From Microvenator marinus (lineage in GTDB: Bacteria > Myxococcota_A > Bradymonadia > Bradymonadales > Bradymonadaceae), in NCBI RefSeq assembly GCF_007993755.1, contig NZ_CP042467.1, positions 5,480,001 to 5,544,000 on the forward strand: DNA of 64,000 nt, read 5' to 3'. Positions within the stretch are counted from its first letter, which is position 1; each line of letters opens with the position of its first letter. The notes below the pieces were generated by a model that worked only from the letters and a program-made list of their open reading frames with translations, searched no databases and was not told where the DNA came from. Shown piece by piece: positions 4,345-30,816 of the stretch. Position numbers and translations under genes: made by a program.

Positions 4345-7300
4345 CTAGTCCCCTTGCTCCAGCAGACTCACCTGACGGGATTGGCTCTTCTTGCTGATGT
4401 TTACTGATGATTCAGGTGCATGAGTTGTGGGTAAAATCATTTCGAGAAGCTCGGCGTGGCGAGCACACTCCTCCCAGCTCTCCTCAACACTCTGCTCGAG
4501 TTGCCAATCGTAGAATCTTGGCCCCAGGTGACTTGCTACGGGTTGATACGCCTTGGCACGTTCATCGTGTCCCAATCCGTAATCCGCCAGACGAAGGCTT
4601 TTCGGTATCATCCATCCTTCCTTTGGATCGACATGTGGCACCGCTCTTTGAAGCGGTTGAAAATTTGGGAGTTCCTCAGAGTTACTCAATCCACAGAAGA
4701 TCGCGATAGCTTTCTCTTCATCCCCTAAAGCAGCGATAAGCTTCTGTAAGTCGGCAAACGCCACCTGTGTGAGTACAGTGTGCCTGAGTTCAGGATCCTC
4801 CCCTTTTTGAGAGCGCCAAAACCCCTTGGTGTTCAGACTCGACGTGAATTGATTGTCACCCGGTGGAAAATCACATTCCAATAAGATGTGCCGCATATCG
4901 GCTTCGGATAGTCCATAAAGTTGGGCAATCACAGCGTCCAAAATAACACGCTTTTCCAATCTGATGCAGTTTCGCAAATTCCACATACTCCTCCAGGCAG
5001 TTTCGCGACGAGGAAGAGTAATTGCCGCAGATGCGAACTGGACGTGTGTTAACCCAAGACCAGACACCAATTGAGACACCAATTTTAGCACCGGCAAGTC
5101 GGGATTAACCAAATTAGAGGACTCAAGTACGCTCCAAATTAGCGAGTTGCCACCCAGACTCATTCTGAGTTGATAGTCATAGATAAACGAGTTTGCGACA
5201 CCAATAAAAGGCGAAACGAGTTCCCGATTTAATGTCAAAGTGGGAGTTTTGTGACCACACGGGCGGTGCGTGAGACCAGCAAGTATGGCAGTACGAGAGT
5301 TTGTGGAGGAAGTGACGTCCATCAAAACTGCTTTGAAGTGCCTATGGTGTGACAACGAAAGACTACGATCCAAGTAGAATTCTGATGCAATCAAGAACTG
5401 CGGCTCAACTTCCTTCGCGTCAAAAGGTATATCGCGCCACACTGCACTCCGACCTTTTCCGCTGACCCAGCCCTTCTGACTGAAGTCGAACTGCCCAATC
5501 ATGCGGCCTTCGTAAAGGGGGAGGGCGACGTCCTCGACCTCACCGATATCCATGGCCATTTGACCATCGCGCGAAAGCACGACGCCTTTGGGACGATCAA
5601 GGATGGACCAATGTTTGTACTGTGGGTCCAGACGATGTTGATTCGGGTCAAAGCCGAATTCGGACACAGGTTTCCACGGGCCTTTCAACCAATGTCCGTA
5701 CTCGTCGGGACTATAGCCTTCCTTCTCCCACTTTTCGCGCGGCGGGAAGAGTTTGGCATCGTTGGTCATGTGGAACTCAGTCGCATACTTGATTCCCCAA
5801 CCGTTTTCCGAATCGTCGCCGAGGAGCACGCCGTTGCCGTAAATCTTCTGCAGAATCTCTAGGTCGCGCTCGCCTCTAATCTCCAAAATCGAAAGCGACT
5901 TGGGACTGAACTGCTTGATGCGTTCCGCCGGATAGCTCAAAACATGTTTGTCCGCGTTTTCCCAATCGGCGAGCTCACGGTGCATAAATGCGGCCTTGAT
6001 CGCCGTGGTGGTGCCACCTTTCTGAACAATGATGGGGTTGAATTTAAATCGGCTATCGATATCAAAAATCTTGTTACGGTTCTCAAACCCAAAGAGCCAG
6101 TGCCAACGCGATTTCTCCAGAAAAAGGCGGCGTAAGTCGGTGGTGCCTTTATCCGTATAAACCCCGGATGGCACGATGAATCCCATATAGCCATCATCAC
6201 GAAGCAGCCCGTGCGCTAGCTCAAGGAAGAGCTTATACGTATTGATATCTGCCGATCCTTGATGTTGATACGGATGTTCTTTCGATGCGTAGCCCTTGCG
6301 CGTTCGCCTCTTCTCAAGCCAGTTGTAGTGCAGGTTATCGCTGTCTTTTCCGAGGGATTTATTCTTGAAATCCTCGCCCAATCGCGCGCGATCGTCTCCA
6401 AAGGGATGGGCACGGTTGGAGTAGAAATTGGAAAGGGACTTAAACTGAGTGCGATACTCAAGCCATGCTCGCTCGTCTTGCTCGCTCTTTTCAAAGAGTT
6501 CTTGCTGGCGCCTCAGCGCCTCTGTTTTTCCATAACTGCGGTATAGCGGGTCGATGTTCGAGAAGAACTCTTTCGAATTGGGTTTGGAGATTTCCCAGGG
6601 TGGGTTTCCGAGGATGGCATCAAACCCTTGTCGGTATGGGTTGAAGACATCCGGAAACTCGAGTTCCCAGTGGAAAAATCGATGCTTCCCAGCTAGCTCA
6701 GAAATGACTTCTTTTGTGACTTCCGGCGTATCAAACCAGTTTTGGGGCGTGGGAAGATGCTCAATCGATTCACCGGGCCAGAACCAGATCGCACACCAGG
6801 TGTCCATGGCCATTTTGAGTCTGTCAAATGTGGGATTACTCGTGCGGCTCTCCCTGTAGAGTCTTTCTCGGGCGTGCGTTTCGTGAATCGGTAGCTTATG
6901 AAGTGCCTCCATCAACTCGAAAGCCTCGGTGTGCACGGATTCGTGGTCAAACTGGGTGACTGTCCCCATAAGGACTTGAATCTGTGACTCAATCATATGG
7001 CGAATACCCGGCTTCACCACGTCATTAAAAGCTTCCTTGTAGGCATTCCCAGTGAGGTTCTTTTCAAAATGATGTCCGTTGTGGGTCTTGTCGCCGGCGT
7101 CCCAGTTTTGTCGTGAAATGGCCAGAAGCGGATAGTCCTGGAATTGGTCTAACCAGCAGCCCACCAACGAGTTTCCGCATTTGATTTTATGGTCCAGGAA
7201 CCCAAAAGGTAGGTCTCGGTCCATGGTCTCGATCCACAAGGCCAGGCGACCAAGCTCAACGGCGAGCGGGTCAAAGTCTACCCCGTAGATGCAGCGCTCA

Positions 7301-9462
7301 ACCACATAGCGCTTGAGCCGCGCCTTGAGCATCCTCTCAAATTCTTCATGGTCAGGCGGTACAGGAATGGGATCGTCGGCCATCCCTTCTAACTCATGGC
7401 CATCCGCAAGCCGGATATAGGACTTGTTGTCCTTATCTAGGATGCACGAGTGGAAGAGGAGGCTCTGATACAGAGCCTCGGTTAGATAGCGCAACGCGGC
7501 CACAGGGAAGGAGGCCGAGCCCATTGCGGGGTCGCAAACCTTCAATGCCAGAATCTCTTCCGGTCTCTTGGGTTCGAGTGTGCCGTCATCCTGTCGGTTG
7601 TACGCCAATGGCTCAAGGGTGCGGCTGACGGTGGGTATCGCAAGTTGTGGGCGAGTATAATACGTGCCCGATCCTTTACGTGTGCCACCCCAACGTGCGA
7701 GGTACCATGTATCGGGTAGGAAGAGTCGGTCCTTGCTGACGAGCTTCTGGGCGGCTTTTTCGCGTTGCTCTGTGAATTCAATCGTCCACTTTTCAGGAGA
7801 TTTCGCGCCCTTGGGAGGAGTAACGAGTCCTGCCGCGATGACAGCGTTGCGCGCCCATTCAAGTGCAGCATGGTAGTAGCCGGTGTCGGTTGCAGGTTCA
7901 TCGTCCTCTTCGTCCGAATCATCGTCGGAGTCGTCGGATGCCTCGACTTCCTCGTCCTCACTTTCCTCATCAACCAGCTCGTCTTCTTCGGCAGCTTCCT
8001 CGTCATCCGCAGATTCTTCACCATCATCTGAGCCCAGCGCCTTTTTGTTTGCCTTTCCGAACTCACTCAGGAGCTCCTTCAACTTCTTCTCTGGCATTTC
8101 ACGCAAGCGTTCCAATGGCAGGATTGGCTCACTTCCAAGGGGAAGCATGATCATCGGTTCATTGGGTTGTACGCGATGCAGCTCGTAGTCGAGCAAACCT
8201 TCGTAGATGATGCCGATGTATTCCGTGGATAACGCCGAAAAATCGACGGGGACTGGGATTGACTTGTTTGATCCACCCACCTTGACTTTGGCTCGGCTCT
8301 CCGTCAGGAGCTCAAGGATATCGTGAATGACTTCATCAGAGAGATCATTGGAGGGGTCCTCAAAAACAGCAAGTGCTCTGCTTATTGGATTATTACTCTC
8401 AGTATCTCCCGGTCGGAAAAGCTCGCCCCCATATGCGTTGATGGTGAGCTCGCTGTGCGCAGATCCTTGATGAACGAGGCGAAAGAGCGCCAGAATTCGT
8501 GGCCATGCCGAGTAACGATGACGAAGTCGCTTCTTATTGCCTCCTGACTCTAGTTTCAGTCGTTGTGCGAGTCCCTGCAAACTATAGGAATGGTTATAGA
8601 CGGCGATGTTGCGTGGTAGCAGGTCTCGCGCTTCAGCGAAAAACACAACCACACATCGCATCATGATTCGGCAGGCGGCAATGTAGATGTCTCGTTTCTC
8701 GATCCCTGGGTCTTCGTCGAGCGCAATCAGTGCCTGAGGATTCGAGTGTCGGATGATAATCTCTATCGCCCGCCGCAGTCGCTCTCCCAATATGCTTGAG
8801 AGCTCGGACTGGCCTTGTCGTGTGGACTGGATGGCCTTGAGTAGTTTTGAAGTATCCCCTTCAACGAACTTGAGGGCTTCGATTCCCATAAGGTGTGTGA
8901 AGGCTGCGTGGTGGTCGCGGTCTTCAAGCACTTGCTGAATGTCAAAGTCCACCCAGGACTCGGAGTCCGGATTTGCGTAGAGGAGACGGTAGTAGCGACC
9001 ATTGGTAACCACGGCTAGGTTCTGCTCCGCCCGCCGCATCCATTCCACAACCTTAGCGATGTCCCGTCTACCTTTACCCACTCCGAGTGGTTTTTCGATG
9101 CAGGCGGGCCATTGACCTTGCGGCTTGACTCGGAACACAGGAATTGGCGCGTAGCCCTCAAGCCGCTTCCAAACCATGTCAGGTCGAAACGCTTCACGGG
9201 TAATGAGAATTCGGGACCAGCTCTTGTCTGGGGCGGCAATGATGCCCGAAATTGTCCAGCCCAACACGTTTATGCACACATACTTAACGCAATCAGCCAG
9301 ATGTTTGGGGTCCTGGTTGAGCTTACCAAGATGTTGTCGGAGCTCTGTGGCGGTATCTTCCGAAATGCCTGGGGTATCTCCGGAAAAAAACTCGATGACT
9401 TTGGCTGGCGAGATGAACAAGCCATTGAGGGTGAGTTGGGCGAACCATTGTGGGGTGCTCAT
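4345..9462 (-). CDS. drmMI: Eco57I-type adenine-specific DNA methylase (DrmMI-like)
   Basis: 1705 residues. Motif I reads DPAMGSASF at about residue 645 and the catalytic motif IV reads ILGNPPWE at about residue 950, which places it with the N6-adenine methylases of the Eco57I/PglX/DrmMI type. The first 450 residues are the long N-terminal region common in such proteins. Residues 477-524 form a very acidic low-complexity linker. The C-terminal third would hold target recognition. The ATG overlaps the SNF2 helicase stop as ATGA. In class 1 DISARM the pair DrmD plus DrmMI marks self DNA by methylation. The symbol rests on architecture and neighbour rather than a database match; a PglX-like stand-alone methylase is the alternative. 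Confidence 0.8.
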   Translation of the reverse strand: MSTPQWFAQLTLNGLFISPAKVIEFFSGDTPGISEDTATELRQHLGKLNQDPKHLADCVKYVCINVLGWTISGIIAAPDKSWSRILITREAFRPDMVWKRLEGYAPIPVFRVKPQGQWPACIEKPLGVGKGRRDIAKVVEWMRRAEQNLAVVTNGRYYRLLYANPDSESWVDFDIQQVLEDRDHHAAFTHLMGIEALKFVEGDTSKLLKAIQSTRQGQSELSSILGERLRRAIEIIIRHSNPQALIALDEDPGIEKRDIYIAACRIMMRCVVVFFAEARDLLPRNIAVYNHSYSLQGLAQRLKLESGGNKKRLRHRYSAWPRILALFRLVHQGSAHSELTINAYGGELFRPGDTESNNPISRALAVFEDPSNDLSDEVIHDILELLTESRAKVKVGGSNKSIPVPVDFSALSTEYIGIIYEGLLDYELHRVQPNEPMIMLPLGSEPILPLERLREMPEKKLKELLSEFGKANKKALGSDDGEESADDEEAAEEDELVDEESEDEEVEASDDSDDDSDEEDDEPATDTGYYHAALEWARNAVIAAGLVTPPKGAKSPEKWTIEFTEQREKAAQKLVSKDRLFLPDTWYLARWGGTRKGSGTYYTRPQLAIPTVSRTLEPLAYNRQDDGTLEPKRPEEILALKVCDPAMGSASFPVAALRYLTEALYQSLLFHSCILDKDNKSYIRLADGHELEGMADDPIPVPPDHEEFERMLKARLKRYVVERCIYGVDFDPLAVELGRLALWIETMDRDLPFGFLDHKIKCGNSLVGCWLDQFQDYPLLAISRQNWDAGDKTHNGHHFEKNLTGNAYKEAFNDVVKPGIRHMIESQIQVLMGTVTQFDHESVHTEAFELMEALHKLPIHETHARERLYRESRTSNPTFDRLKMAMDTWCAIWFWPGESIEHLPTPQNWFDTPEVTKEVISELAGKHRFFHWELEFPDVFNPYRQGFDAILGNPPWEISKPNSKEFFSNIDPLYRSYGKTEALRRQQELFEKSEQDERAWLEYRTQFKSLSNFYSNRAHPFGDDRARLGEDFKNKSLGKDSDNLHYNWLEKRRTRKGYASKEHPYQHQGSADINTYKLFLELAHGLLRDDGYMGFIVPSGVYTDKGTTDLRRLFLEKSRWHWLFGFENRNKIFDIDSRFKFNPIIVQKGGTTTAIKAAFMHRELADWENADKHVLSYPAERIKQFSPKSLSILEIRGERDLEILQKIYGNGVLLGDDSENGWGIKYATEFHMTNDAKLFPPREKWEKEGYSPDEYGHWLKGPWKPVSEFGFDPNQHRLDPQYKHWSILDRPKGVVLSRDGQMAMDIGEVEDVALPLYEGRMIGQFDFSQKGWVSGKGRSAVWRDIPFDAKEVEPQFLIASEFYLDRSLSLSHHRHFKAVLMDVTSSTNSRTAILAGLTHRPCGHKTPTLTLNRELVSPFIGVANSFIYDYQLRMSLGGNSLIWSVLESSNLVNPDLPVLKLVSQLVSGLGLTHVQFASAAITLPRRETAWRSMWNLRNCIRLEKRVILDAVIAQLYGLSEADMRHILLECDFPPGDNQFTSSLNTKGFWRSQKGEDPELRHTVLTQVAFADLQKLIAALGDEEKAIAIFCGLSNSEELPNFQPLQRAVPHVDPKEGWMIPKSLRLADYGLGHDERAKAYQPVASHLGPRFYDWQLEQSVEESWEECARHAELLEMILPTTHAPESSVNISKKSQSRQVSLLEQGD

Positions 9463-12400
9463 AGTCGGATCTCCACAGCGACAGGAAAGATGCTGATTTC
9501 CCCATCGAGCTCAAGGCGGTTGGGAAGGATGTGTTTCAAGAACTCTTCTTCTTGCTTTTTGACGGATTCCAGAAGCTGAGCGTAATGAGATTCGCGCAGT
9601 TTGATTTCGTCCTCAAGCGACCGAATCTTTTCCATTCGACGCTGTTTTGAGTCGCTGTCTAAAGCCTGTTGCGCTGTCTCTTTTTCGAGGTCAGCTTTAA
9701 GCTTATCGACGTTCTTTGACTGGCTCTCGCTTTTGATTTCGTTAATGCGTTCTGTATAACGTTGCTTCTCGGCTTTGATGACCGCAGGCCGGTGTTCTTT
9801 GAGAAGCGATTTGATCTGCTCTGACCTTGCCCCTTTAAGGGACTTTACGAACTCCATGCAGTCCAGGGCAATATCGGTCCAAATGTCGCGGGCGATTTCA
9901 AGTTGAACTGGTGTTGCGGATTCACCGGTTGGTACCTCTGTAGGCGGCCGATACGGCATTGGGGTTTGAAGTTGACCGTCCTTGATCGGGATTTCAATGG
10001 TTCGGACCCAATGATGCAGCGGTTCACGGAGCTTGTTTATGGCCAGCTCCTCGACGGTGAACAGGAGAAGTGCATCCATTCCGTTGGGGACTCCACCCGT
10101 CCGTACAATCCAACGGGATGCGTCAAGAGTGGTCGAATATTCACCCTTCACCACGCCTGCATTTGGGAAACGCGCTCGTGCAAACTGCGCCAGCGTTTGT
10201 TTAAATAGCGGATGGCCGAGGTGCATCAGGACTGTATCTTTTCTGTGCCGGAAAACGCGCCGCTCCCCAACTTGTTCGGTCATCGTACCCGAATCGAATG
10301 CCAGTCGCGGAAGGGCACCCGATTGGGCACGGTCGGCAATCCCTTTGCGCAAGGTTGAGTCGATTAGATAGTTCCAGTGAGGCGGAATGGGGTGATTGAG
10401 GCTGTATCGTCCACCATCGGAGGAGGATAGGCGTGGAAGTCCAGTCCCTATCCCTAAGGCAGCCTCCAAGGTTGACTTCAGTGAATCTGGGGTGAGATCA
10501 ATATGGTCTTGAAATTCTCCGATGCGTGCAGCTTCCTCCAGTAAAACATCATCTTGCGATTTGGTTTCACCCAGGTCGAGTTTGGCCTCACTTGTCTTTT
10601 GGACGTGTGCCGTCCGTCGATCCAGATTTGGCAAAGCATTTTTCGATTCTGTGAGCGACGAAAACTTCTCTTCGAATGCTCTTTCGAAGACTTCGCCCAT
10701 GGTTTGGAGGTCGTTGCGAATGGTATGTACCTTGGTAATAACCCGGGCCATAAATTTTAGGTCATCTGCAGCACTGCTATCGAAGTGATTGACTTCAACG
10801 GTTCGAGCCTGACCATGACGATCGAGGCGCCCGTTGCGCTGTTCAAGGCGCGCAGGATTCCATGGAATATCCCAATGAAAGAGCAGGCGTGCACTCTCTT
10901 GCAGGTTTAGACCTTCAGACGCGGCGTCTGTCGCGATCAGAATCCTGGCTCCTGAATCTGGGTCGTTGAAGATGAGCTTAATCTCCTCCCGTTCGGCACG
11001 TTGCATTCCGCCAAAGAGCTCGCGAATGTGAAAGCGTGTGTGGTCTTTGAACCGTGTTCTGAGTCTGTGAGACAGATAGTTCAGCGAGGTCATATATTCA
11101 GTGAAGATAATCAGGCGTTCATCCGAACGCCAACCTTTGTCTTGCCTCAAACGGTCCTCAATGAAGTTTGCGAGAATATCAAAGCGTGCGTCTTCTGTTG
11201 GGACTTGGACTATGCCTGACTCAACAGGTTTCAGTCCCAACGTGGCGAGACTTCTGTCTAGCGTCTCAATCTCAGACTTCAGTTTGTGGTAATATTGCTT
11301 GAACCATTCACCCGTGGTTTCTGCTGCAAAACGCTGAACACGCTCATGCTCGACATCGTCGTCTATCTCTCGATCCACAGCACGTTTGGCATTTGCTACG
11401 TCGCTCTGGTTGGCACTCTGAACGTCCTTTTCGGGTGAGCCGTCCATTCCATGGCGAAAGCGGAACCAAGAGTCAGCAAAGGTTGTGGGACCTGATAGTA
11501 GGCGCTTGTTGAGCACCTCCAAAGAGAAACGACCCGCCAGCAACTCCTTCATGTCATTCTTGGGGAGTTCCCTCAGCAGTGCCAATCGGAAGCTTTCAAA
11601 CGCGCGAAAAAGCTGAAGCTCGCCAGGACCAAAATTCACGTCATTGGACTTCAACTCCCGATCTGCAAATCGGGGGGGGCGGTTGTTTTCCAGGTCCAAA
11701 TTGTTGATGTCACTTTTCAAGCGCCTCACCACGACCTCGGAGATCCGTTTTTTCATCCCCTGGTTCCGTTTGTCGTGAAGATCGCTGGTGCGATGAAAGC
11801 GGCTAGGGTCCAACTGTTCCAAAAGACCTGTGAAGCAGCGCGTATGGCCGTTATGTGGCGTTGCGGTAAGAAAGAGCTTGTGTTCAAACCAAGGGCTTAT
11901 GATTCTCAACATGTTCGCTAGATCACTATCTTCGCCATAGTTTGCCGGCATAAGATTATGCGCTTCATCCACGATCAAGAGATCCCACGGCATGTGCGAA
12001 GGTTGAGTTGGGTCGTTTGACTCCGTAGCTGCACGGAACTCTTCCATCACATTGGGTTGCCTCAAATAATGGTAAGAAGCGATAGCCCTAGGAAAGACTC
12101 GCCAAGGATTCGCATCCATACCAAGGCGCTTCTTGAGGTTGATGGTCTCGTCCCGATCGATCACATCAAAGCTTAGGGCAAATTTCTCGTCCATCTCCTG
12201 TTGCCACTGGTCGCGAAGTGAAGCAGGGCACAAGATTAGAACTCGTCGGATACGTCTTCGGATGAGTAGCTCATTGAGGATCAGGCCGGCCTCAATGGTT
12301 TTTCCAAGACCCACATCGTCGGCGAGCAACAAGGATACACGCGGCATCCTTAAGGCTTTGAGCATTGGGACAAGCTGGAAGTCTTCTACTTGAACCGCAC

Positions 12401-12755
12401 CGTGGAAGGGGGCGGAGATCGGCTCTGCTCCTTTCTTGCTGGGATCTTCCGGCGCCAGGAAAGGCGTCAGAGCGCCCCAACGCGTTGCGCGCAAGAGCGC
12501 ATCATACTCATGAGCGAGCATTGGGGGCGACTTCTCGACAGCTGGAAGCGCAAGGGGAAGGACACAGGTTGCATTGGGTTCACGCTCCCAGATGACTTGG
12601 TCCTCTTGGACGCCGTCGGAGTCGGTGTAGCTGATCGTAACCAGGTGCAATATGCCGTCGGACTTGCCGTCGAAGGGGTGCAGATTGGTGATGATGCCGC
12701 GACGATTGCGGACTGTTGCCATCATGCCAACGCGAGGGAGTTGGAAGTCAGCCAT
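9459..12755 (-). CDS. drmD: SNF2-family helicase (DrmD-like)
   Basis: A Swi2/Snf2 helicase with motif I DDVGLGKTIEAG, motif II VDEAH, motif III LFLTATPHNGH, a helicase-C segment IFTEYMTSL, motif V ATDAASEGLNLQ and motif VI NGRLDRHGQ. A long Lys/Glu-rich coiled coil lies near the C-terminus. I chose the ATG at 12755 (protein starts MADFQLPRVG) because family members begin close to the VRNRRG segment and because this leaves about 160 bases for divergent promoters. The frame stays open to a GTG at 12893, which would leave only 24 bases to mcrB, and none of the candidate starts has a strong ribosome binding site. First gene of the DISARM-like operon. Confidence 0.82.
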   Translation of the reverse strand: MADFQLPRVGMMATVRNRRGIITNLHPFDGKSDGILHLVTISYTDSDGVQEDQVIWEREPNATCVLPLALPAVEKSPPMLAHEYDALLRATRWGALTPFLAPEDPSKKGAEPISAPFHGAVQVEDFQLVPMLKALRMPRVSLLLADDVGLGKTIEAGLILNELLIRRRIRRVLILCPASLRDQWQQEMDEKFALSFDVIDRDETINLKKRLGMDANPWRVFPRAIASYHYLRQPNVMEEFRAATESNDPTQPSHMPWDLLIVDEAHNLMPANYGEDSDLANMLRIISPWFEHKLFLTATPHNGHTRCFTGLLEQLDPSRFHRTSDLHDKRNQGMKKRISEVVVRRLKSDINNLDLENNRPPRFADRELKSNDVNFGPGELQLFRAFESFRLALLRELPKNDMKELLAGRFSLEVLNKRLLSGPTTFADSWFRFRHGMDGSPEKDVQSANQSDVANAKRAVDREIDDDVEHERVQRFAAETTGEWFKQYYHKLKSEIETLDRSLATLGLKPVESGIVQVPTEDARFDILANFIEDRLRQDKGWRSDERLIIFTEYMTSLNYLSHRLRTRFKDHTRFHIRELFGGMQRAEREEIKLIFNDPDSGARILIATDAASEGLNLQESARLLFHWDIPWNPARLEQRNGRLDRHGQARTVEVNHFDSSAADDLKFMARVITKVHTIRNDLQTMGEVFERAFEEKFSSLTESKNALPNLDRRTAHVQKTSEAKLDLGETKSQDDVLLEEAARIGEFQDHIDLTPDSLKSTLEAALGIGTGLPRLSSSDGGRYSLNHPIPPHWNYLIDSTLRKGIADRAQSGALPRLAFDSGTMTEQVGERRVFRHRKDTVLMHLGHPLFKQTLAQFARARFPNAGVVKGEYSTTLDASRWIVRTGGVPNGMDALLLFTVEELAINKLREPLHHWVRTIEIPIKDGQLQTPMPYRPPTEVPTGESATPVQLEIARDIWTDIALDCMEFVKSLKGARSEQIKSLLKEHRPAVIKAEKQRYTERINEIKSESQSKNVDKLKADLEKETAQQALDSDSKQRRMEKIRSLEDEIKLRESHYAQLLESVKKQEEEFLKHILPNRLELDGEISIFPVAVEIRL

Positions 12756-12917
12756 GAACACACTCAGGGTAAGAGAATTGCCACCAATGGATTCGAATTG
12801 TGCTTGTTGTAAACCTACCGCGCTCCCCGGGTCAATCTTCATCAGGATTCGAGTTGGTGGAATATGAGGAATCGCATATGGTTCGTGAAACACCTTCCCA
12901 AATGACGGTTAAATACG

Positions 12918-15374
12918 ATGGATGAAGCCAAGCTCAATCAGTTGGTCCAGGACCTCCGGCAGTTTCCCGAGTTGGTCGATACTGATGTCGTTCAAGCACT
13001 TACACTGTGTGAGAAATCGCTCCCCCGGTTGGCTGCTCTGGCGGAGGGGTATGGCGCGGAATGCAAACCCAACTACCATGATGAATCAACGGGGTTGCTC
13101 ACTGAGCAGCCCGCGTTCGACTTCGACTGGAAAGACTCTGGTCAGCATGCCCCCGTCTTGTTGATGCAGCTTTATTTTAGTCGGCATAAACCTGTTGGTT
13201 GGCGCCTTCGTATCGTGGGAAGTCAGGATCGCGGAGCAGCATGGTCGGAGCCCTTTCTGAACTGGCTTGAAACTCAACCCATTTCCAAGCGCTGGTCCAA
13301 CGTTGTGCAAGATCAAGTTTACTTGGAAAAGGAATTGGGAGAAGACCTGACTGAACTAGGAACCGAGTTGAGTTTAGGATTGGGATTTCTAAACTCGTAT
13401 GTGATAGCTAAGGAGCAATCCAAATCCGCGACCGAGCTTCTTGGCAAGCTAACGACACAATCCCATGTCGCCGAACAAAAGTTAGATTCTGTAGTGTTGG
13501 ACGCAAAGAACGTCATCTTCTACGGACCGCCTGGAACAGGTAAGACCTATCTGACATCAAGACGGGCAGTCGAGATCATTGATGGCAAGCGGGCTCCAGA
13601 GTCTTATGAAGAGGTGATGAAACGATATCGTGAGCTCTACGACCGTGACCAAATCGCGTTCGTAACTTTCCATCAATCTTACGGATATGAAGAGTTCGTC
13701 GAGGGAATTGCTCCCGACCTTCAGAGTGATGAGATCAAATACAAATTGCGTGATGGTGCTTTCAAGCGCCTTGCGCTTTTAGCGCTGAGCGAAGGGGTCA
13801 AAAAGGTTGATGATTTTGATAGTCGCTGGATGACTCTTTCGGCAAAGGCTGGGGATACCGGATTCAACGTTCAATCGAAGGAAAGAAAGGACTATATCCT
13901 GACGTTTGATGGGATGCGCTTTGCGCTCTCAGGCAACACAGAATACCCTTCAATAGCTCGCGACAAGCTCAGAAAGTTGTGGGACCAATTCAAAGATAGG
14001 GATCTGAAAGAGCTGACGTCCAAAGACTTTGCTGAACATGTACAAAACTTCACCCCTTTTTGGACTGTGCTCAACGCGATGAAAGAGCTGCCTGAGGCGG
14101 ATGTACGGCTATTCAGTGAGCCTGGGCAACTACCGTTGACGGAGTTGTTAGAACTCGCCAAGGAGTCGTTGGCACAACCTGAAGCCTTAGATTTCTCCAA
14201 TGCGCGTCGATACGTGCTCGTCATAGATGAGATCAATCGCGGGAATATCAGCAAGATTTTGGGGGAGTTGATGACGTTGCTTGAGCCCAGCAAACGTCTT
14301 GGTGATGTGCAAGCGATGATTGTAACTTTGCCTTCGGGCGAAAAGTTCGCAGTCCCGCCCAATCTCTATGTGATCGGGACCATGAACACGGCCGACCGGT
14401 CGATTGCGCTCATGGACGTGGCGCTGAGGCGGCGTTTCCGTTTCGAAGAAATGATGCCGAATGTATCAGTGATTGTGCGTTCTCTACTGATACATTTTGA
14501 GGAGAATTATCGCGACCTCAGTGAAGAGAACTTGCTTTTTGTGAATGTCTGTGTGGCAGTCTTTGAAAAGGTTAATCAAAGAATTCGTTTCTTGTACGAC
14601 GCTGACCACCAGATTGGTCATTCGTACTTCCTGAAAGTGAAGACTCTCAATGATCTCCAATTTGTCTTCTTGAATGAAGTGATCCCTCTTCTTCAAGAGT
14701 ATTTCTACGGTGCTTGGCGCAAAATCGCGCTAACCCTTGCGAACCCATACGATGATAAGGGTCTACCAAGGAGGAAAGATCTGCCGGCTAAGCACCACGT
14801 AATTTCTTGTACCAAACTTGAGGAGAAGAGCGTTTTACTCGTGGATGATGAAGACTATGAAGACCAGTATGAATTCGCGGTCTCAAACGAGTTCATGAGG
14901 GACTACCCGAAAGACGACTCAGATTTGCTTTCATTTTTCGCTGGTGTCGCAGGAGTTAGGATTGAGGAACTGAAGAAACTGGATGAACGTTTCAAAGAGA
15001 TCGAAGTGATGTTGGACTCGACTTCGGAAGTTGAAGTTTCAGGGGAGGAAAACGATGAGATTCAGCGAACCCGTCTGGCTATGGAGGTTAACGGTAAAAC
15101 CTATGAGGAACCCTATGTTCCGCGTTTTTTTGAAGCCGTCTTGTCTGACGTTTTTCAACATGCCAGCCCACCATTGCCGTATCGCCGCTCCTCACGACAC
15201 TTTGTCTCTCGTGATGGCCTGCATCCCGACGGCAAAGCGGCAATTCGACCAATTCCCATACAAACTCCGAACGGGATCGTTATCGTCGAAGGCAACTACG
15301 GTCGAAAAGATGCGTTGCGGCGATTGAGGGAACTGCTCACTGACATGGGCATAAGCCACAGGGACCCGGTTTGA
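12918..15374 (+). CDS. mcrB: McrB-like AAA+ GTPase of a McrBC restriction system
   Basis: 818 residues. The N-terminal 190 residues are of unknown fold and probably carry DNA recognition. The AAA+ module has Walker A GPPGTGKT at about residue 204, Walker B VLVIDEINRGN at about 433 and the family signature GTMNTADRS at about 487, followed by ALRRRFRF. The VTFHQSYGYEEFVEG segment after Walker A is also typical of McrB. McrB hexamers hydrolyse GTP and translocate DNA so that McrC can cleave, classically at modified cytosine. The stop overlaps the mcrC TTG start. It is divergent from the DISARM-like operon and lacks an obvious Shine-Dalgarno sequence. Confidence 0.9.
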   Translation: MDEAKLNQLVQDLRQFPELVDTDVVQALTLCEKSLPRLAALAEGYGAECKPNYHDESTGLLTEQPAFDFDWKDSGQHAPVLLMQLYFSRHKPVGWRLRIVGSQDRGAAWSEPFLNWLETQPISKRWSNVVQDQVYLEKELGEDLTELGTELSLGLGFLNSYVIAKEQSKSATELLGKLTTQSHVAEQKLDSVVLDAKNVIFYGPPGTGKTYLTSRRAVEIIDGKRAPESYEEVMKRYRELYDRDQIAFVTFHQSYGYEEFVEGIAPDLQSDEIKYKLRDGAFKRLALLALSEGVKKVDDFDSRWMTLSAKAGDTGFNVQSKERKDYILTFDGMRFALSGNTEYPSIARDKLRKLWDQFKDRDLKELTSKDFAEHVQNFTPFWTVLNAMKELPEADVRLFSEPGQLPLTELLELAKESLAQPEALDFSNARRYVLVIDEINRGNISKILGELMTLLEPSKRLGDVQAMIVTLPSGEKFAVPPNLYVIGTMNTADRSIALMDVALRRRFRFEEMMPNVSVIVRSLLIHFEENYRDLSEENLLFVNVCVAVFEKVNQRIRFLYDADHQIGHSYFLKVKTLNDLQFVFLNEVIPLLQEYFYGAWRKIALTLANPYDDKGLPRRKDLPAKHHVISCTKLEEKSVLLVDDEDYEDQYEFAVSNEFMRDYPKDDSDLLSFFAGVAGVRIEELKKLDERFKEIEVMLDSTSEVEVSGEENDEIQRTRLAMEVNGKTYEEPYVPRFFEAVLSDVFQHASPPLPYRRSSRHFVSRDGLHPDGKAAIRPIPIQTPNGIVIVEGNYGRKDALRRLRELLTDMGISHRDPV

Positions 15375-16756
15375 ATCGGCTTACGGCGGTCGAGTATGAA
15401 CGTGTCTATCTTGGGGACGAGGACACCATCACGGGTGAACGGGACTCGAGTGGAAAGACGCTCATTCATCCCAAACATTTTCGTACACTCCAAGAGTTTG
15501 ATGAGGGGCACGCAGAAGAGTCGAAGCAGATTTTTCAGTGGCGGAGCAAATATCTGCAGCCCAAGAATTGGATCGGGATAGTTCAGGTCGGAAGCCTAAT
15601 CGTTGAGATCTTGCCGAAGATCTATCGGGCTCCAAAAGCGCCAGGCACTGAGGGACAGGAAACCGAAGAAGTGTTTCAGCGCAAGAATCTGCTCTATATG
15701 CTGAGTCTGAGCGGCGATCTTCCACTCCGCGATCGCGACCTTGCCTCACAGAGCCTGCACAAAGCCCCCATCTCAGAGACGCTGATTCGGCTCTTCGCCG
15801 AACAGCTGCTCGAACAGCTTCTCCTGGGCGTTCAGCATGGATACGTCCATCAGGAGGATAATCTGCGATTCCTGAGGGGTAAGCTGAAGTTCTCGCAGCA
15901 TATCAAGCACAACTTCGCCCGAGCCGACCGCTTCTATACGGTCTACGAAGAATTCCTGGCCGACACTCCCTTGAACCGCATCTTCAAGGCTACGTGCGTG
16001 CGTTTGCGCGACATCACACGCAGACCAGCATCACAGGAGCGGCTGGACAGCTGTTTGAGCATTCTGGACGAAGTCTCACTCAAGCCACTCATTGCCGCAG
16101 ACTTCGACAACTTCACAGAGAACCGACAGAACGCTCGCTTCACTTCCCTGATTAACTTCTGCAGATTGGTATGGGAGGGCAACATCGCGACAGGAATGCG
16201 CGGCAAGACAGCTACGTTCGCGCTACTCTTCGATATGAATGCCGTGTTTGAACGATTTGTGGCTGAGTTCATGAGGCGGCACGTGATTCGCGACTTTCCC
16301 GATGCTCAATTGAGTCCGCAATCAAAAGGCCTCCGCGAGTACCTCCTTTGGAGGCTCAACGACAAAGACGAACGCAAAGGCGTCCTGGAGCTCAAGCCTG
16401 ATATACTTGTCATGTGTGGAGACTCACCACGTTTGATCATCGACACGAAGTGGAAGCAGTTGGCCACAGAGAAAGGTAATCGCTATGGCGTGACGTCTGG
16501 CGACCTTTATCAACTCTACGCATACGCCACGCGGTACGACTGTAGTCATAACATCTTGTTATATCCATGGGTGCCCGATGTGAAGGAGCGCGATTACGAA
16601 CTGAGGGACGATGCCCGTCACCGGATAAGTACGCGCTTTGTCGATCTCTCGATGGATTTGACTCAACGGGAAGGTAGGGAAAAGCTTACTGATTATCTGA
16701 AAATAATTGTGGAAGGCGCAATTCCGCAAGAGGAGCACCATGCCTCAGCCGAGTGA
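15371..16756 (+). CDS. mcrC: McrC-like nuclease subunit
   Basis: 461 residues beginning at a TTG that overlaps the mcrB stop (TTGA); there is no ATG in frame nearby. The C-terminal half holds the PD-(D/E)xK nuclease core: ELKPDILV near residue 340 and IIDTKWK near 357. McrC stimulates McrB GTPase activity and supplies the endonuclease. The N-terminal part contains the expected LRGKLKF and TPLNRIFK segments seen in McrC proteins. Its last bases overlap the start of the macro-HEPN gene, making a three-gene unit. Confidence 0.9.
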   Translation: MNRLTAVEYERVYLGDEDTITGERDSSGKTLIHPKHFRTLQEFDEGHAEESKQIFQWRSKYLQPKNWIGIVQVGSLIVEILPKIYRAPKAPGTEGQETEEVFQRKNLLYMLSLSGDLPLRDRDLASQSLHKAPISETLIRLFAEQLLEQLLLGVQHGYVHQEDNLRFLRGKLKFSQHIKHNFARADRFYTVYEEFLADTPLNRIFKATCVRLRDITRRPASQERLDSCLSILDEVSLKPLIAADFDNFTENRQNARFTSLINFCRLVWEGNIATGMRGKTATFALLFDMNAVFERFVAEFMRRHVIRDFPDAQLSPQSKGLREYLLWRLNDKDERKGVLELKPDILVMCGDSPRLIIDTKWKQLATEKGNRYGVTSGDLYQLYAYATRYDCSHNILLYPWVPDVKERDYELRDDARHRISTRFVDLSMDLTQREGREKLTDYLKIIVEGAIPQEEHHASAE

Positions 16757-17939
16757 ACCATGGAGTTGGTCCTTGGGGAGCGTGACGTTGGAGGTTCGCG
16801 GCCAAAGCCTCTTAGACGCACCCGAAAGGGCATGGGTGAGTAGTGAGGACTCTGGCTTCTACATGGCGCGGAATCCATCGGCTATATCCGGTCAGCTGCG
16901 TAGGCATTTCCCTTATGTTTTAGACGAGCTCCGAGCTCAGACGCGTGGTGAGGTATTACCACCTGGGACCACACTTCGAACGAATGGTCCGGAAGGACGC
17001 GTGATTTTTCATGCGGGGTTTCACCATCCCAATGACTGGGATCTCTCGGATGATGAACTTGTGGCCAAGCATGCGTCCATGATTCAGCGCTGTATTGAGG
17101 ATATTCTTGAGTCTGTGGCTGAGACCGGCCTAGAGAGTGTGGCGTTTCCTATGTTGGGAACCGGACTTTTTCATCTGCCTGTTTCTGTGTTTGCCGAGAC
17201 CTTCTTTGAGGCGGTGGCTATGTTCAGCCGGCGAACACATAGAGCTGTCAAAGTCGTCCTATGCATCCTTGAACCAGCGCTGATTGAAGAAGTTGTCCGC
17301 TTTGGTACGAGGGCGCTCGGCGCGATGGTGGGTGGGGGAGAACCACTATTGCGAGAGGCAGGAGGACACCCAATTGTGCAGGGTCTGAGGCATACTGCGC
17401 GGGCTTTGGCGGATGAAAAGTTACAAGAGCGCAATCTTCTTCACTTTGCCGAGATTGCGCTCATGACTGACCTCGCACTCTTTTACGATTTTGAGGACAA
17501 GCCTCCCTCTGTTTTGCTCGACAAAAACGGTGGTAAGGGCGAGTGCAACCTTACTTTCGGAATCATTCGAAACAGGCTGGAAGGATTACGAATAAGGCGC
17601 CGTATACCCGAGTGGGCGATGCATCGTTACCAGCAAATCTGCAGTCAACCCTTCCAGAAAGCAATTGGTCGTCTTGTAGGAGACCGTAATGATTACGCCC
17701 ATAACCGTCGCCCAAGGCCAGTGGAGGATATTGTAACGGATATCGAATCTTTGTTTGGACCGGAGGTTCTCACCGAGACATGGAAAGACGCAGAAACACA
17801 TAGGTGGATACGTTCATTTCCTGCCGGATATGGTCTTTTGGACGGCGTTGATCCAGTGCGCGGCCGTTGTTCGTGGTTGATTCCCGAGGTTAGGCAACGA
17901 GTTCACGAGGATTTTGAAATGGATGTTCAAGAAGTGTAA
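16740..17939 (+). CDS. Macro domain fused to C-terminal HEPN domain
   Basis: 399 residues from the ATG at 16740, which has a strong AGAGGAG site; an upstream in-frame start at 16707 lies deeper inside mcrC. Residues about 65-180 resemble a macro (ADP-ribose-binding) domain: VIFHAGFHH, then SVAFPMLGTGLFHL and a VVLCIL strand. The C-terminal half is helical and contains RNDYAH near residue 315, the R-x4-H motif of HEPN ribonucleases. The gene overlaps mcrC by 17 bases, so it is translated with McrBC. It may sense or remove ADP-ribose-type modifications and cleave RNA as a second line behind restriction; that is inference. It converges with the GTPase gene below, the two 3' ends overlapping by 50 bases. 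Confidence 0.72.
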   Translation: MPQPSEPWSWSLGSVTLEVRGQSLLDAPERAWVSSEDSGFYMARNPSAISGQLRRHFPYVLDELRAQTRGEVLPPGTTLRTNGPEGRVIFHAGFHHPNDWDLSDDELVAKHASMIQRCIEDILESVAETGLESVAFPMLGTGLFHLPVSVFAETFFEAVAMFSRRTHRAVKVVLCILEPALIEEVVRFGTRALGAMVGGGEPLLREAGGHPIVQGLRHTARALADEKLQERNLLHFAEIALMTDLALFYDFEDKPPSVLLDKNGGKGECNLTFGIIRNRLEGLRIRRRIPEWAMHRYQQICSQPFQKAIGRLVGDRNDYAHNRRPRPVEDIVTDIESLFGPEVLTETWKDAETHRWIRSFPAGYGLLDGVDPVRGRCSWLIPEVRQRVHEDFEMDVQEV

Positions 17940-18897
17940 GCGTGTCGAGGATGACTTTGGCGAGCGGGTCGATCATTGATTCCTGCAAAGCGACTTTCAC
18001 CAGCAGTTTCCTCTGAGCCAGCGTCCATTTCGAGGTTGCTCTAGGTAGGTCTTCGAGGAATTCTGAGTCGAGCAAGTGCCTGTGGTACTTCGTTAGTTCT
18101 TCGAGGGCCTTGGCTTCAATGCTTTTGGCGTCGCGTTGGAAATATTTGGCCTTGATTCTTGCGAACCAGGACTTATAGCCACCATACTCTTCGATCACGG
18201 AAGCAAGTAACCCAATACGGCCGGAGACCTTGTAGATTTGCCGATTCAAAGCGCTGGTAAAGCCTCTTTCGCTTTCTGCTCTAGCTATCATCCTGCGCAG
18301 CCTATCCTCCAATTGTCTTGCACTCGCATTTGGTTCACGATCGTTCAGAAAAATATCCACCTTGTTGAGTACATAGATGATGTTCGTTGGGTTATCTGAC
18401 AAACTCATAGCAAGGTTGAGCGAATCAAACTGTTTGCGCTCGTCAGTTTCATCGGCACCAAACACAACAACAGACACCGCACCTTCCGTCCGCCCGTGAG
18501 AGTGTCGGTCATCACCCACCCAGCGTACTCCAGGTGTATCCACCAACGAGATCGCCAAATCACGCCTTTTGATTCGACTTCCAATACGGGTGGGCCAGTT
18601 GATTTCAAATCTGGGTGGAGCCAGATCCCCTCGGGAATGGTATATTTCCATCACTTCGCGTAACCGCCCCCCGATCTGCTCAGGGCTCCGAAAGTCGAAA
18701 GAACCGCATTCCCAGCATGCACCATCCGTTTCGGCAATATTCAAAGACTTCCGTCTGGAATGGCTAACGCGGGTAAGACCAGCAGTCATTTCTTGAACTG
18801 CGTGAGGAAGAAGATCAGCCCCGATGAGCGCATTCGCAAGTGTGCTCTTGCCGGAACTTGTAGTTCCGAAAAAGAAGACTTCCCTTTGTTGTTTCAA
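17890..18897 (-). CDS. Short dynamin-like GTPase
   Basis: 335 residues. G1 is GTTSSGKST (11-19), G3 is DTPG (120-123) and G4 is NKVD (178-181). Shared segments AVQEMTAG and WPTRIG, and the C-terminal LPRATSKW, show it is a shortened paralogue of the large dynamin two genes upstream. The start is a TTG with AGAGG six bases before it and no better ATG. It lacks the long helical stalk, so it probably works with the large GTPase. It is the last gene of a four-gene operon, 9 bases after the membrane protein gene. Confidence 0.8.
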   Translation of the reverse strand: MKQQREVFFFGTTSSGKSTLANALIGADLLPHAVQEMTAGLTRVSHSRRKSLNIAETDGACWECGSFDFRSPEQIGGRLREVMEIYHSRGDLAPPRFEINWPTRIGSRIKRRDLAISLVDTPGVRWVGDDRHSHGRTEGAVSVVVFGADETDERKQFDSLNLAMSLSDNPTNIIYVLNKVDIFLNDREPNASARQLEDRLRRMIARAESERGFTSALNRQIYKVSGRIGLLASVIEEYGGYKSWFARIKAKYFQRDAKSIEAKALEELTKYHRHLLDSEFLEDLPRATSKWTLAQRKLLVKVALQESMIDPLAKVILDTLTLLEHPFQNPRELVA

Positions 18898-18906
18898 GTT
18901 TGCCTC

Positions 18907-19752
18907 TTAATGTTTGAAGCCAACAACTTTGGGGTCCGGAACTCCCATTGAGAAAACTCCCAGTCGGGTCAGCTCTACCTTGCCCAGAAAAGATGCGAAC
19001 TGGAACTTACTCTCCGGGAGGGCCTCGCCCTTCCAGGAATACGCAACAGCCCACAGGTTTTCAGTTGTTTCGGTCAAATCCTTGGAAGGGGTGAGAAGGG
19101 CTTCCTCTTGAAGCAATCTCCAATCCGCTGCCGATCCCGTCCAATAATAGCGGGCCTGACTTACCTGCTCCTTGAGCGACAGATGTTCTCCCGCGAAATC
19201 CTCGGCATTCTCAGTGTGTCGTGCAAAAACGACAAATTGTTCTGACGTACCTGACTCTGCTTTGGGAGTTGAACGCACAGGTTGAGGATTAGGCTCTTTG
19301 TCCGGCTTGTTCTCCTGCAAATTCACGGTGGGCTCTTTCCTGCTACGACTCCACACAACTAAGAGACCACCCGCGACAAGCGCAACCACGACGGCGACTC
19401 CGACCCATCTTAAGTCCAATTCCATGTCCATTGAATCTCCCCTGGAATCGTCCCTCACCGCATGTGAGAGATGATCTCGTTTACGTTGACGTGGCAAGCG
19501 TCCACCTCCATTCTCATCCAGAAAGTCTTGATAAAAGTCTCGGTTTCGGCGCGCTTTCGAAGCCAAAGTCGGGTTCACCAATTCTAAGCATTTTGTCGCG
19601 AGTTGTTCGCCGCGATAGTGTTGAGAAGAGATTGCCTCTTCGTAGAGTTCTCGATTCTGTTTTCCAAAGAATTCGAAGGTTTCATCAGTCCACGCGCCAT
19701 AGTCGTACGGCGCCTTTAAGGCTCTGATGTTTTCCGCCACAAGATCCTTCAT
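18907..19752 (-). CDS. Single-pass membrane protein in dynamin operon
   Basis: 281 residues from the ATG at 19752, which overlaps the large dynamin stop as ATGA and has GGAG nine bases upstream. Residues 1-110 are a charged, helical cytoplasmic-looking region. One transmembrane helix follows at about 116-134 (WVGVAVVVALVAGGLL), then a charged linker and a C-terminal domain rich in Trp and Glu. No family recognised. With no signal peptide the N-terminal part should lie in the cytoplasm, where it could recruit the GTPases to the inner membrane. Its place between the two dynamin genes argues for one complex. Confidence 0.7.
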   Translation of the reverse strand: MKDLVAENIRALKAPYDYGAWTDETFEFFGKQNRELYEEAISSQHYRGEQLATKCLELVNPTLASKARRNRDFYQDFLDENGGGRLPRQRKRDHLSHAVRDDSRGDSMDMELDLRWVGVAVVVALVAGGLLVVWSRSRKEPTVNLQENKPDKEPNPQPVRSTPKAESGTSEQFVVFARHTENAEDFAGEHLSLKEQVSQARYYWTGSAADWRLLQEEALLTPSKDLTETTENLWAVAYSWKGEALPESKFQFASFLGKVELTRLGVFSMGVPDPKVVGFKH

Positions 19753-22100
19753 TTGAGCTTTCTCCAATCTTCGCCGTCTTGAACACGCTGACGCAGCTTA
19801 TCTATACCTTTCTCATGTGATTCCACGATCCGGACTTTTACTTGAACACCTTTCTTGAGTTCCTTCAATCGGTCTTGCAGCTGCCGCCGGTACTCATTCA
19901 CGCCAGCCTCCAGTGTCGACTCCAGTTCATGGTCAAACCCCTTGATGGATTCGACGAGCCACTCTCGGACGCTGTCCTCGAGATTTGATGTCTCAAACGA
20001 GCCTCCGAAGCTGGCCAGAATGGACTCATAACTGCCAAACTTCATTCCGCTAGCAGATTTCTCGATAGTTACCACCACACTCTTCGTGAAGAAGGGGATA
20101 TATTTCCAACGTTGTTGTTTGACTATGTTGACCTCTTTCAAGGTCTCGCTCCAGCGCTCGATGTCGGGCTCAAAATGGATTCTTTGGATCTGCAATTTTG
20201 GAATGCTGAATTGGCGGTGAAAGAGGTCGCCAAGGCCCTTGAATTGATGACCATTCGCCGCAAGGATTTCATTTGCGTTCTTTCCCAACTGTTCAGCGAT
20301 CTTTGTTTCTATTTCCTGCAGCAGATTTTCGAGTCGCTTACCCTGGATTTCTGACTCACGTACAAGTAGTCGATTGGCCGTATTCGTAAGCGCGCGGCTG
20401 AAAGCATTAAGGTCTTTCTTCGTTTGTTCAGCCTGGCTGTCTTCAATCTTTCCGCCGGTTTGGGAAATGGCGCCATACGGGCCAGCCATCAAGTTTCGCA
20501 AACTCTTCTGAAGCTCCTTTCCTCCGATACCATCGAGGAGTTCGTCGTGCCCACCTTCCTGAGTGCCGCTCTCCCAAGTGTAGGCCATCAAGCGGTCTAG
20601 CGGTTGTTTAACAATATCATGAAACACGGACCAGAGAGGCGCCGCATTCAATCCCAATCCGGAACTCAAAATTTCGCCAGCGTTTACGAGGTGAATTTGA
20701 AGATCTTCGTCCTCCGGCAGATCTCTCAATGGCCCGACTAGCCCTAACACTTCGGCTTGGCTTGCCATTAGTTGCTGGTTGATTTCTTCTAGTCTTTGCT
20801 GGGCGTCCTCTACCTCCTGCTCACGTAGCAATTTGAAAGTCGAAATCCGAGTATCGAGGAATCTGAGGACGTTTCGTGCTGGTTCGGACGCTTCCTGTAC
20901 TAGGTGTGGAAGGAGAAGCTCGGGGAGATTCTTGGCGATATGGTCTCGCAGCGTGGCCTCAAATCTATCCAATCGTGCCCCTTTGGAACCAATCTGAACG
21001 AATTCCTTCTTTTCTTGGGCGGAAAAACGGGATGCGCTTCGCGGCAATTCGTTCAAGAACTCTCTTGGGAAAAGGGCGTTATAGTGTTTGTCGAGGTTGC
21101 TGATAGCAGTTTCTTGGCTCTCTGCAGAGCTGTTCGGATTATCAGCCATGAGTGTCATGAGCGCAGGTTCGCTGGAGAAGCCGAGTGGCAATATTTTCTT
21201 GATTTCATCTGCATACTCCGGAAGTGCCTCCCGTAGTTTCGATTGGACAGCGTGTGTGACCCGGTGCGTGAAAACCTTCTCGCTTTCCTCGGGGTTTGGG
21301 TCGGTCAGGAATGCATCAATTCTATTAAGGATGAACATCATTCGAGCGGGAGAGCCGCCTAGCACCTTGACTTGGTCGACCACCTGATTGAGCAACGCTG
21401 CTTGTTTGTTGGCGTCAGTCTCATAGGAGTTGTACGCCACAATACACATTGCTCCCTTCGCTTCACGCTTAACGACGTCTCCGTTAAGGTTATCGTCCAC
21501 ATACTTCAACCCAGGGAGGTCAAGGATACGTATCTTGCAGCCCTTTGGAAGGCCAAAGGCATCTGCATTAAGCCCGAGCCTCGTGGGCCACTGAACCGTG
21601 CATGAAGGAGGTTCAATCTCTTCGCATTCGTGAGGGGCCAGACCATCGAGGGCATTGCGATACGCCTCCATGAGCTTCGCAAGTCGGTCCTGAATTTCTT
21701 CGGCCGAAAGATCGGTCCACTCCCCCGTCTCCCACTTGGCGTTTTTCGTATCCGTTACTTTCAGTCGTCGGATCTGGTCGTGTTCGATTGTTACGACTCC
21801 AGCGCTCATCTCTTGAACTGCCTTAGGCAGGAGTGCATCGCCAACAAGTACGTTTGCAATCGTACTTTTCCCGGAGCTCGTTGTGCCGGTGGTGGCCAAA
21901 ACCACGGTGGGTTGTTGCGCCTCCCGTTTCAGCCTGACTACTGAGTCCTTCAGCTTTTGAAGCTCTTGACGTACTTCGGGCAGGGAGGTTTCCAAAGCGG
22001 CTTCAATATCAGGGACGAATTCCTCGAAAGCTTCCGTGGCCCGGTCCCATTGGAGTGCCACGTTCATCAGCAAGGTCCCTACAGAGCTCTGGTTAGGCAT
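19749..22100 (-). CDS. Large dynamin-like GTPase
   Basis: 783 residues. After a helical N-terminus come G1 GTTSSGKST (72-80), the switch-like segment AVQEMSAG, G3 DLPG (194-197) and G4 NRID (259-262). The remaining 400 residues are predicted helical with several coiled-coil stretches, as expected for a bacterial dynamin-like protein with a stalk. Bacterial dynamins bind and remodel membranes, and some (DynA, LeoABC) act in phage tolerance or vesicle release. The ATG has GAGG upstream and overlaps the preceding gene by 8 bases. Confidence 0.85.
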   Translation of the reverse strand: MPNQSSVGTLLMNVALQWDRATEAFEEFVPDIEAALETSLPEVRQELQKLKDSVVRLKREAQQPTVVLATTGTTSSGKSTIANVLVGDALLPKAVQEMSAGVVTIEHDQIRRLKVTDTKNAKWETGEWTDLSAEEIQDRLAKLMEAYRNALDGLAPHECEEIEPPSCTVQWPTRLGLNADAFGLPKGCKIRILDLPGLKYVDDNLNGDVVKREAKGAMCIVAYNSYETDANKQAALLNQVVDQVKVLGGSPARMMFILNRIDAFLTDPNPEESEKVFTHRVTHAVQSKLREALPEYADEIKKILPLGFSSEPALMTLMADNPNSSAESQETAISNLDKHYNALFPREFLNELPRSASRFSAQEKKEFVQIGSKGARLDRFEATLRDHIAKNLPELLLPHLVQEASEPARNVLRFLDTRISTFKLLREQEVEDAQQRLEEINQQLMASQAEVLGLVGPLRDLPEDEDLQIHLVNAGEILSSGLGLNAAPLWSVFHDIVKQPLDRLMAYTWESGTQEGGHDELLDGIGGKELQKSLRNLMAGPYGAISQTGGKIEDSQAEQTKKDLNAFSRALTNTANRLLVRESEIQGKRLENLLQEIETKIAEQLGKNANEILAANGHQFKGLGDLFHRQFSIPKLQIQRIHFEPDIERWSETLKEVNIVKQQRWKYIPFFTKSVVVTIEKSASGMKFGSYESILASFGGSFETSNLEDSVREWLVESIKGFDHELESTLEAGVNEYRRQLQDRLKELKKGVQVKVRIVESHEKGIDKLRQRVQDGEDWRKLK

Positions 22101-23496: not shown

Positions 23497-23873
23497 TCTG
23501 CCTCCTTAACCTAAAGCGCTCCAAACTCCGAACCTTTGAGGGAAATGGGAGTGCTGACAAATAAGTAGAATCGTTGTCGACGAACGATCTCACCTGTGAG
23601 CATCATGTCAATCGTGAATTGACTCCAAAGAACAACTTTCTTATTCGACGGTACGTATCATGCCGTGTTTGGTGTTTCTCTCCCAAAAGATTGGGGGCCG
23701 AGAGCATCGGATTAGGCACCTGTGTTCTCGAACGTACGAAAGCGACAGTGCCTCCAATTGGCCAGACGTTGAGATCTACGTACTTGAATCGCTTTGCAGA
23801 TAGCGATGTGTTGGTTGACATGGTGTAGTCTTGCGCAAACACTGGCTGTAAATCTCTCATAATGCAGGGTGAT
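23497..23873 (+). promoter_or_regulatory. Divergent intergenic region between dynamin operon and second mcrBC
   Basis: 377 bases with no convincing gene. It must hold the promoters for the dynamin operon (leftward) and mcrB (rightward). Leftward, the strong AAGGAGG site is at 23501-23507. Rightward, TTGCGC at 23831 and ATAATG at 23860 are weak core-promoter candidates. No clear operator palindrome was seen. Confidence 0.4.
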
Positions 23874-29886: not shown

Positions 29887-29907
29887 GGAATCACAACCTC
29901 AGGTTTC

Positions 29908-30354
29908 TCAGTAACCCAGTCCTAACTCTTGCGCCTGGTCCGCGAGTTGTTGGAGGGTATCGCGGCTTTGTTCACGGCTCTTCTTTCGATACACCATGAG
30001 ATCACTCATTTTGATGCGACGATGCGTTCCAACCTTGTGATAGGGAATTGCACCAGCCTCCAGCTGTTGCACCAGGTGGGGACGCGAGACATTCAGAATG
30101 TCAGCGGCCTCTTGTGTTGTGAGTTCGGCGTGGTGCGGCACCACCGTCACGGCATTGCCATTCGCGAGTTCGGCGAGGACATCGGTCAGAATTTGAAACG
30201 CTGCGAACGGAATCGAAACCTCAAGGTCTCCAATTTTCAAGGAAACCTCTGCTGCGCTCCTCCTTTGGTCTTCAGAGTCACCCGTGATTAACCGGAGCGC
30301 TGCTTTTGCCTCTTGTGCTTCATCCAGGGTCGGTATCTCTATTGCGGAACTCAT
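29908..30354 (-). CDS. Excisionase-type HTH antitoxin, orphan copy 2
   Basis: 148 residues from the ATG at 30354, about 90 percent or more identical by eye to the copy at 27607-28053, with the same HTH (LTTQEAADILNVSRPHLV) and the same start. The frame stays open upstream but homology to copy 1 begins at this ATG. It again has no toxin gene downstream, where the rhuM remnant converges with it. An intact frame in both copies suggests the protein is still under selection or that the duplication is recent. Confidence 0.75.
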   Translation of the reverse strand: MSSAIEIPTLDEAQEAKAALRLITGDSEDQRRSAAEVSLKIGDLEVSIPFAAFQILTDVLAELANGNAVTVVPHHAELTTQEAADILNVSRPHLVQQLEAGAIPYHKVGTHRRIKMSDLMVYRKKSREQSRDTLQQLADQAQELGLGY

Positions 30355-30388
30355 ATGACTCTCCTCGTTTCGTCTCAAAGCACAGTAG

Positions 30389-30748: not shown

Positions 30749-30775
30749 TTTTTTCACACAAACGACTCCTTTTTT

Positions 30776-30802: not shown

Positions 30803-30816
30803 CTACAATTCCACCA

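Follow-up and report, generated by a model that had tools for sequence, protein, structure and literature searches.

Macro and HEPN domains occur separately in several described prokaryotic immune proteins. The macro domain of ThsA in type II Thoeris binds ADP-ribose derivatives (PMC11204291), so that macro sensors on membrane effectors are already known, as are HEPN ribonucleases on CARF sensors (Csm6 and Csx1). Genes of the pEK499_p136-like HEPN set are found in operons with restriction-modification genes, ART and Macro (PMC3710099, Table 1), and, among Metazoa, cnidaria have TRADD-N proteins in which HEPN, Macro and PARP domains are combined (PMC8195603). No two-domain macro-HEPN protein from a prokaryote was found in a literature search; the papers on macro and HEPN together, where checked, concerned other architectures.

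A probable protein of this kind is encoded in a 64,000-nucleotide stretch of the genome of Microvenator marinus (the window; Table 1). Like ThsA, which is a TM-macro protein, it would place a macro sensor of an NAD-derived signal on an effector part, and ThsA thus offers an analogy for the sensor; unlike ThsA, it has a predicted HEPN RNase instead of the membrane segment, and no TIR-domain ThsB was found by Pfam or PADLOC among the scanned neighbours of any copy. Csm6 and Csx1 offer an analogy for the layout, in which a domain that senses nucleotides precedes a HEPN RNase carrying Rx4-6H, but here macro replaces CARF. The pEK499_p136-like set similarly brings HEPN and macro together in restriction-modification neighbourhoods, as separate genes rather than one polypeptide; a search of 189 genomes with PF18736 gave no match, but its controls were silent too. 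The cnidarian TRADD-N proteins likewise combine HEPN and Macro in one immunity-type protein, but are eukaryotic and multi-domain, whereas the protein described here is prokaryotic and has two domains.

Table 1. Features of the macro-HEPN gene and its neighbourhood (positions in the window, except for the last line, which refers to locus L010 of the Myxococcota genome G205).
Feature	Position	Strand	Basis or remarks
IIG/DrmMI-like DNA methyltransferase	4345..9462	-	PADLOC E=0
DrmD-like SNF2 helicase	9459..12893	-	PADLOC DrmD 4.9e-189; divergent from mcrBC
mcrB	12918..15374	+	Walker A and NxxD motifs intact
mcrC	15371..16756	+	Pfam McrBC 1.8e-76; PD-(D/E)xK intact, motif PD..DTK
Shine-Dalgarno GAGGAG	16730..16735	+	4 nt before ATG, within mcrC; read directly from the sequence
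macro-HEPN gene	16740..17939	+	399 aa, ORF intact; full-length homologs at 54% and 30% identity
Macro domain, residues 8-195	16761..17324	+	Pfam PF01661; PARP14 macrodomain 2 by sequence and fold
Predicted HEPN four-helix domain, residues 207-340	17358..17759	+	AF2 helix order; top Foldseek matches
Glu238, invariant acidic residue, predicted helix 2	17451..17453	+	Alignment; AF2 model; HEPN definition in PMC3710099
RNDYAH (R316, H321; residues 316-321), Rx4H, end of predicted helix 3	17685..17702	+	
C-terminal tail, ~60 residues, predicted strands	17760..17936	+	Conserved W356, R358, F360, G365, L366, P382
Diversity-generating retroelement of G205 (L010)	TR/VR 4968-5091 and 7162-7285; RT 5085-6113; FGE-sulfatase 7152-8831		

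The N-terminal half is certainly a macro domain. It matches the Pfam Macro family (PF01661) with E=5.5e-7 and a score of 30 bits, above the cut-off of 22, and two homologs in Thiorhodococcus minor score 31.2 and 34.4 bits, so that the domain exceeds the cut-off in the three of four copies scanned as proteins, the fourth being recognized at the level of the genome search. The closest solved relative by sequence is macrodomain 2 of PARP14 (2e-8 for the full protein, 2.1e-9 for the N-terminal half alone), which is also matched in fold (Foldseek E=2.1e-8, probability 1.00) and similarly lacks the MacroD catalytic residues, but belongs to a eukaryotic PARP protein with no HEPN domain and is only about 22% identical. 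The segment PMLGTGLFHL, from which an earlier note on this DNA, made from the sequence alone, had recognized a macro-like region, corresponds to residues 137-146 in macro loop 2, where AFPxxGTGLF is invariant in an alignment that includes other Myxococcota macro domains.

The same note had listed binding and removal of ADP-ribose as known activities of macro domains, and of these two removal is the less likely here. Hydrolysis of the MacroD type depends on two residues, the Asp in GGGVDG and the second Asn in NAAN, and in this family their loss points to a reader over an eraser. Both are replaced in all four copies in the alignment, so removal of ADP-ribose is unlikely, and the residues present favour a macro half that reads rather than erases. 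The domain may instead bind or sense, but, unlike ThsA, the Myxococcota copies have lost some of the canonical ADP-ribose-binding residues: other residues stand in place of the adenine-binding Asp of GDI and of the first Asn in NAAN, so that ADP-ribose itself may not be the ligand. DarG was tried as an identity for the macro half and rejected, its match (E=0.027) covering 36 residues of the generic macro loop rather than the length of DarG.

The C-terminal half had been assigned to HEPN from the motif RNDYAH, which does lie in a helical region. The Rx4H pattern in itself is uninformative, being present in 54% of shuffled C-terminal halves, but RNxxAH occurs in only 0.1% of the shuffles, and the four copies carry RNDYAH, RNEAAH, RNHLAH and RNRLAH, with R, N, A and H invariant. 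Because it is rare in shuffles and kept across four divergent sequences, RNxxAH is more than chance; the Asp preceding it (DRNxxAH) and Glu238 are invariant as well, down to 29-30% identity. The full-length AF2 model was poor in the C-terminal half, which was therefore folded alone, giving a model of low confidence (mean pLDDT 56) that is best near the motif (74-81). In this low-confidence model RNDYAH ends helix 3, Glu238 lies in helix 2, and a long insert separates helices 2 and 3, each of which is a feature of HEPN domains (PMC3710099). Searched against PDB with Foldseek, the model has HEPN-MNT toxins (8xeh/8xdj) as its top four matches, at a non-significant E=0.25, and further HEPN-superfamily structures (MtlR, YutE, HepT-type and the sacsin HEPN) among its top 30, at E>=0.25. 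The HepT-type toxins of HEPN-MNT systems are thus the best, though non-significant, fold matches of this half and likewise carry Rx4H, but differ in that here a macro domain is fused and no MNT nucleotidyltransferase gene was found nearby. By sequence, a PDB profile search and Pfam down to E 10 gave nothing meaningful for HEPN in this half, and the C-terminal tail had Tudor-like matches alone, none of them significant.

A HEPN identity for the C-terminal half is accordingly rated as likely, the fold search being significant for the macro half and leaning, without significance, towards HEPN for the other. The missing family match by sequence and the low confidence of the model would also fit a helical binding or dimerization module without nuclease activity, in which RNxxAH is fortuitous, but such a module is unlikely: Glu238 and the D, R, N, A and H of the motif do not vary among the four divergent copies and are placed as HEPN catalysis needs, and the top folds are HEPN. 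A second reading of the same domains is a toxin-antitoxin in one chain, with a HEPN toxin and a macro domain that restrains it or reverses its ADP-ribose- or AMP-type mark. Macro domains serve as antitoxins in DarTG, although antitoxins are normally separate proteins. The weak DarG match described above and the AMPylation control of HEPN toxins in MNT systems (title of PDB 8xdj) speak for a one-chain pair, which is nevertheless very unlikely, as the MacroD catalytic residues are absent and neither a DarT partner nor an MNT nucleotidyltransferase was found among the neighbours scanned.

The macro-HEPN architecture is supported, and it was found again, in full length, in two other genomes. One copy is in the Myxococcota metagenome-assembled genome G205 (L009-L011), with 54% identity, and two are in T. 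minor (L012 and L013), with approximately 30% identity, making four copies in three genomes. A scan of genome contigs gave no locus with a single-sequence query and three loci with a two-sequence alignment, one of which was the known G205 locus. Profile or sequence searches of approximately 1,400 distinct genomes yielded no more full-length copies, and no relatives were found in collections of viral contigs, phages and plasmids; a pattern-based scan of 84,980 species was insensitive, and the rarity of the fusion is consequently an estimate. Weaker matches (L002-L007, L017 and L018) are macro-only. In two of these (L005 and L006, from two other genomes of the class), the macro domains are by eye fused behind Ser/Thr protein kinases.

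In M. marinus the macro-HEPN gene is closely joined to mcrC. As noted earlier, its start codon (ATG 16740) lies inside mcrC and is preceded by a good ribosome-binding site; the two genes overlap by 17 nt on the same strand with zero intergenic gap. The start is supported by alignment, since the T. minor homologs begin at nearly the same place. These sequence signals support translational coupling of the macro-HEPN gene to mcrC in this genome, by which the protein would be made in step with McrBC. Codon usage and G+C content do not clearly distinguish the gene from its island.

The coupling was not seen at the other mcrBC loci compared. The drmD-mcrBC pair corresponds to the McrBC group that PMC11090510 names as DISARM-like-associated, and its gene order is kept without macro-HEPN in G003, a genome of the same family (window 9459-16756; L031 7000-14001); drmD-mcrBC is thus an older unit. 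The macro-HEPN gene is missing behind all four of the closest mcrBC operons in the class (McrC 42-45%), and none of the three other copies is near mcrBC. No McrC was found in G205 or T. minor with Pfam at E<=1e-5, a setting at which both McrC proteins of the M. marinus genome and the single McrC of G003 were recovered. The text of an McrBC census contains the word 'macro' 0 times, and a literature search for McrBC together with a macro domain found no paper. Judged by these gene arrangements, macro-HEPN is a local addition behind mcrC in M. marinus. The idea of the earlier note that the gene forms a second arm of McrBC does not hold as a conserved trait, and its proposed survey of mcrBC loci for a third gene of this type turned up none elsewhere in the sample reached. 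That the protein is a dedicated third subunit of McrBC/DrmD, a suicide arm fired by blocked or failed restriction, is most unlikely: the start codon within mcrC, the good ribosome site, the shared strand and the lack of a gap favour such a subunit, but the absence of the gene from the closest operons, one of which shares the drmD-mcrBC order, the lack of McrC in both other genomes and the silence of the census weigh against it.

The contexts of the other copies have conflict loci, not McrBC, as their common theme. In T. minor, an AAA/DUF3150/CobT-VWA cluster that ends in a RadC gene precedes each copy. On the other side, tail-to-tail with the copy, lies a gene for an RtcR-type CARF-sigma54 regulator, and beyond it come ARPP-1 and then Druantia genes. 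At one locus these encode DruH3 (1.4e-85) and DruE3 (E=0), and at the other a DruE-like helicase and a 1153-aa partner. The G205 copy lies directly upstream of an FGE-sulfatase gene that is targeted by a complete diversity-generating retroelement, which has a reverse transcriptase and whose template and variable repeats form a 124-nt pair whose 19 differences all fall at adenines of the template. Together with the mcrBC/drmD island, the Druantia genes and the retroelement support, as context, a role in conflict or defence. Neither TIR, ART nor another signal-making enzyme was found among the neighbours scanned, and no type III CRISPR genes were seen in the parts scanned.

In the T. minor loci (11200-21000 of L012 and L013), the RtcR-type regulator is divergent from ARPP-1 with the Druantia genes behind, at two loci in one genome, which suggests that Druantia is under CARF control in T. 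minor. In G205, a Ser/Thr kinase gene is divergent from macro-HEPN (L010 10716-14255), and its N-terminal RYRNDVIGHG is HEPN-like by eye.

The T. minor regulators also bear on a possible role in RNA repair, in which the macro domain would bind RNA ends that are ADP-ribosylated or carry a terminal phosphate, and the HEPN domain would trim or cleave such RNA as part of an RNA-repair response to damage. Both T. minor copies are tail-to-tail with the regulator, and RNA ends with a cyclic phosphate, left by metal-independent RNases, may be what CARF and WYL regulators sense (PMC9503650). Such a role is quite unlikely, however, because neither RtcR nor an RNA ligase was found beside the M. marinus gene or the G205 copy, and the regulator is divergent from ARPP-1 and may serve only ARPP-1 and the Druantia genes.

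Because the fusion recurs usually beside other anti-phage systems and never with McrBC, we tentatively prefer, at a little short of an even chance, an autonomous, ligand-gated effector, a mobile accessory carried by defence islands. The macro half, without MacroD hydrolase residues, would read a molecule of the ADP-ribose type, or an ADP-ribosylated target, arising during infection; once bound, it would release the C-terminal HEPN domain, which would cut RNA and stop growth or phage production. As no signal-producing enzyme was found near any copy, the signal could come from phage or host ADP-ribosylation. In M. marinus, co-translated with McrBC, the effector could act once restriction is overwhelmed. 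The ligand, RNase activity, gating and anti-phage effect that we infer would link ADP-ribose signalling directly to RNA cutting within one chain. It is rather unlikely that these proteins form a new class of signal-gated immune ribonucleases in which macro reads an ADP-ribose-family second messenger or phage ADP-ribosylation and directly switches HEPN, much as CARF does for cyclic oligoadenylate in Csm6, and which serve as a plug-in second line for DNA-targeting systems such as McrBC/DISARM-like ones and Druantia. With the effector placed behind mcrC in one genome and in unrelated islands elsewhere, a modular design of 'restriction plus back-up suicide arm' becomes an idea open to test.

The home island of the M. 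marinus gene contains several further defence genes. A second mcrBC operon (window 23862-27094; McrC Pfam 8.1e-19) lies approximately 7 kb downstream of the first. Between the two, a block of four genes on the minus strand (window 17890-23496) encodes a 467-aa protein and two dynamin-like GTPases that weakly match LeoA/LeoBC; its last gene shares 50 bp with the 3' end of macro-HEPN. Beyond the second operon (window 28929-31788) lie an AbiD/Abi_2 gene (4.7e-66) and a fragment that resembles RhuM.
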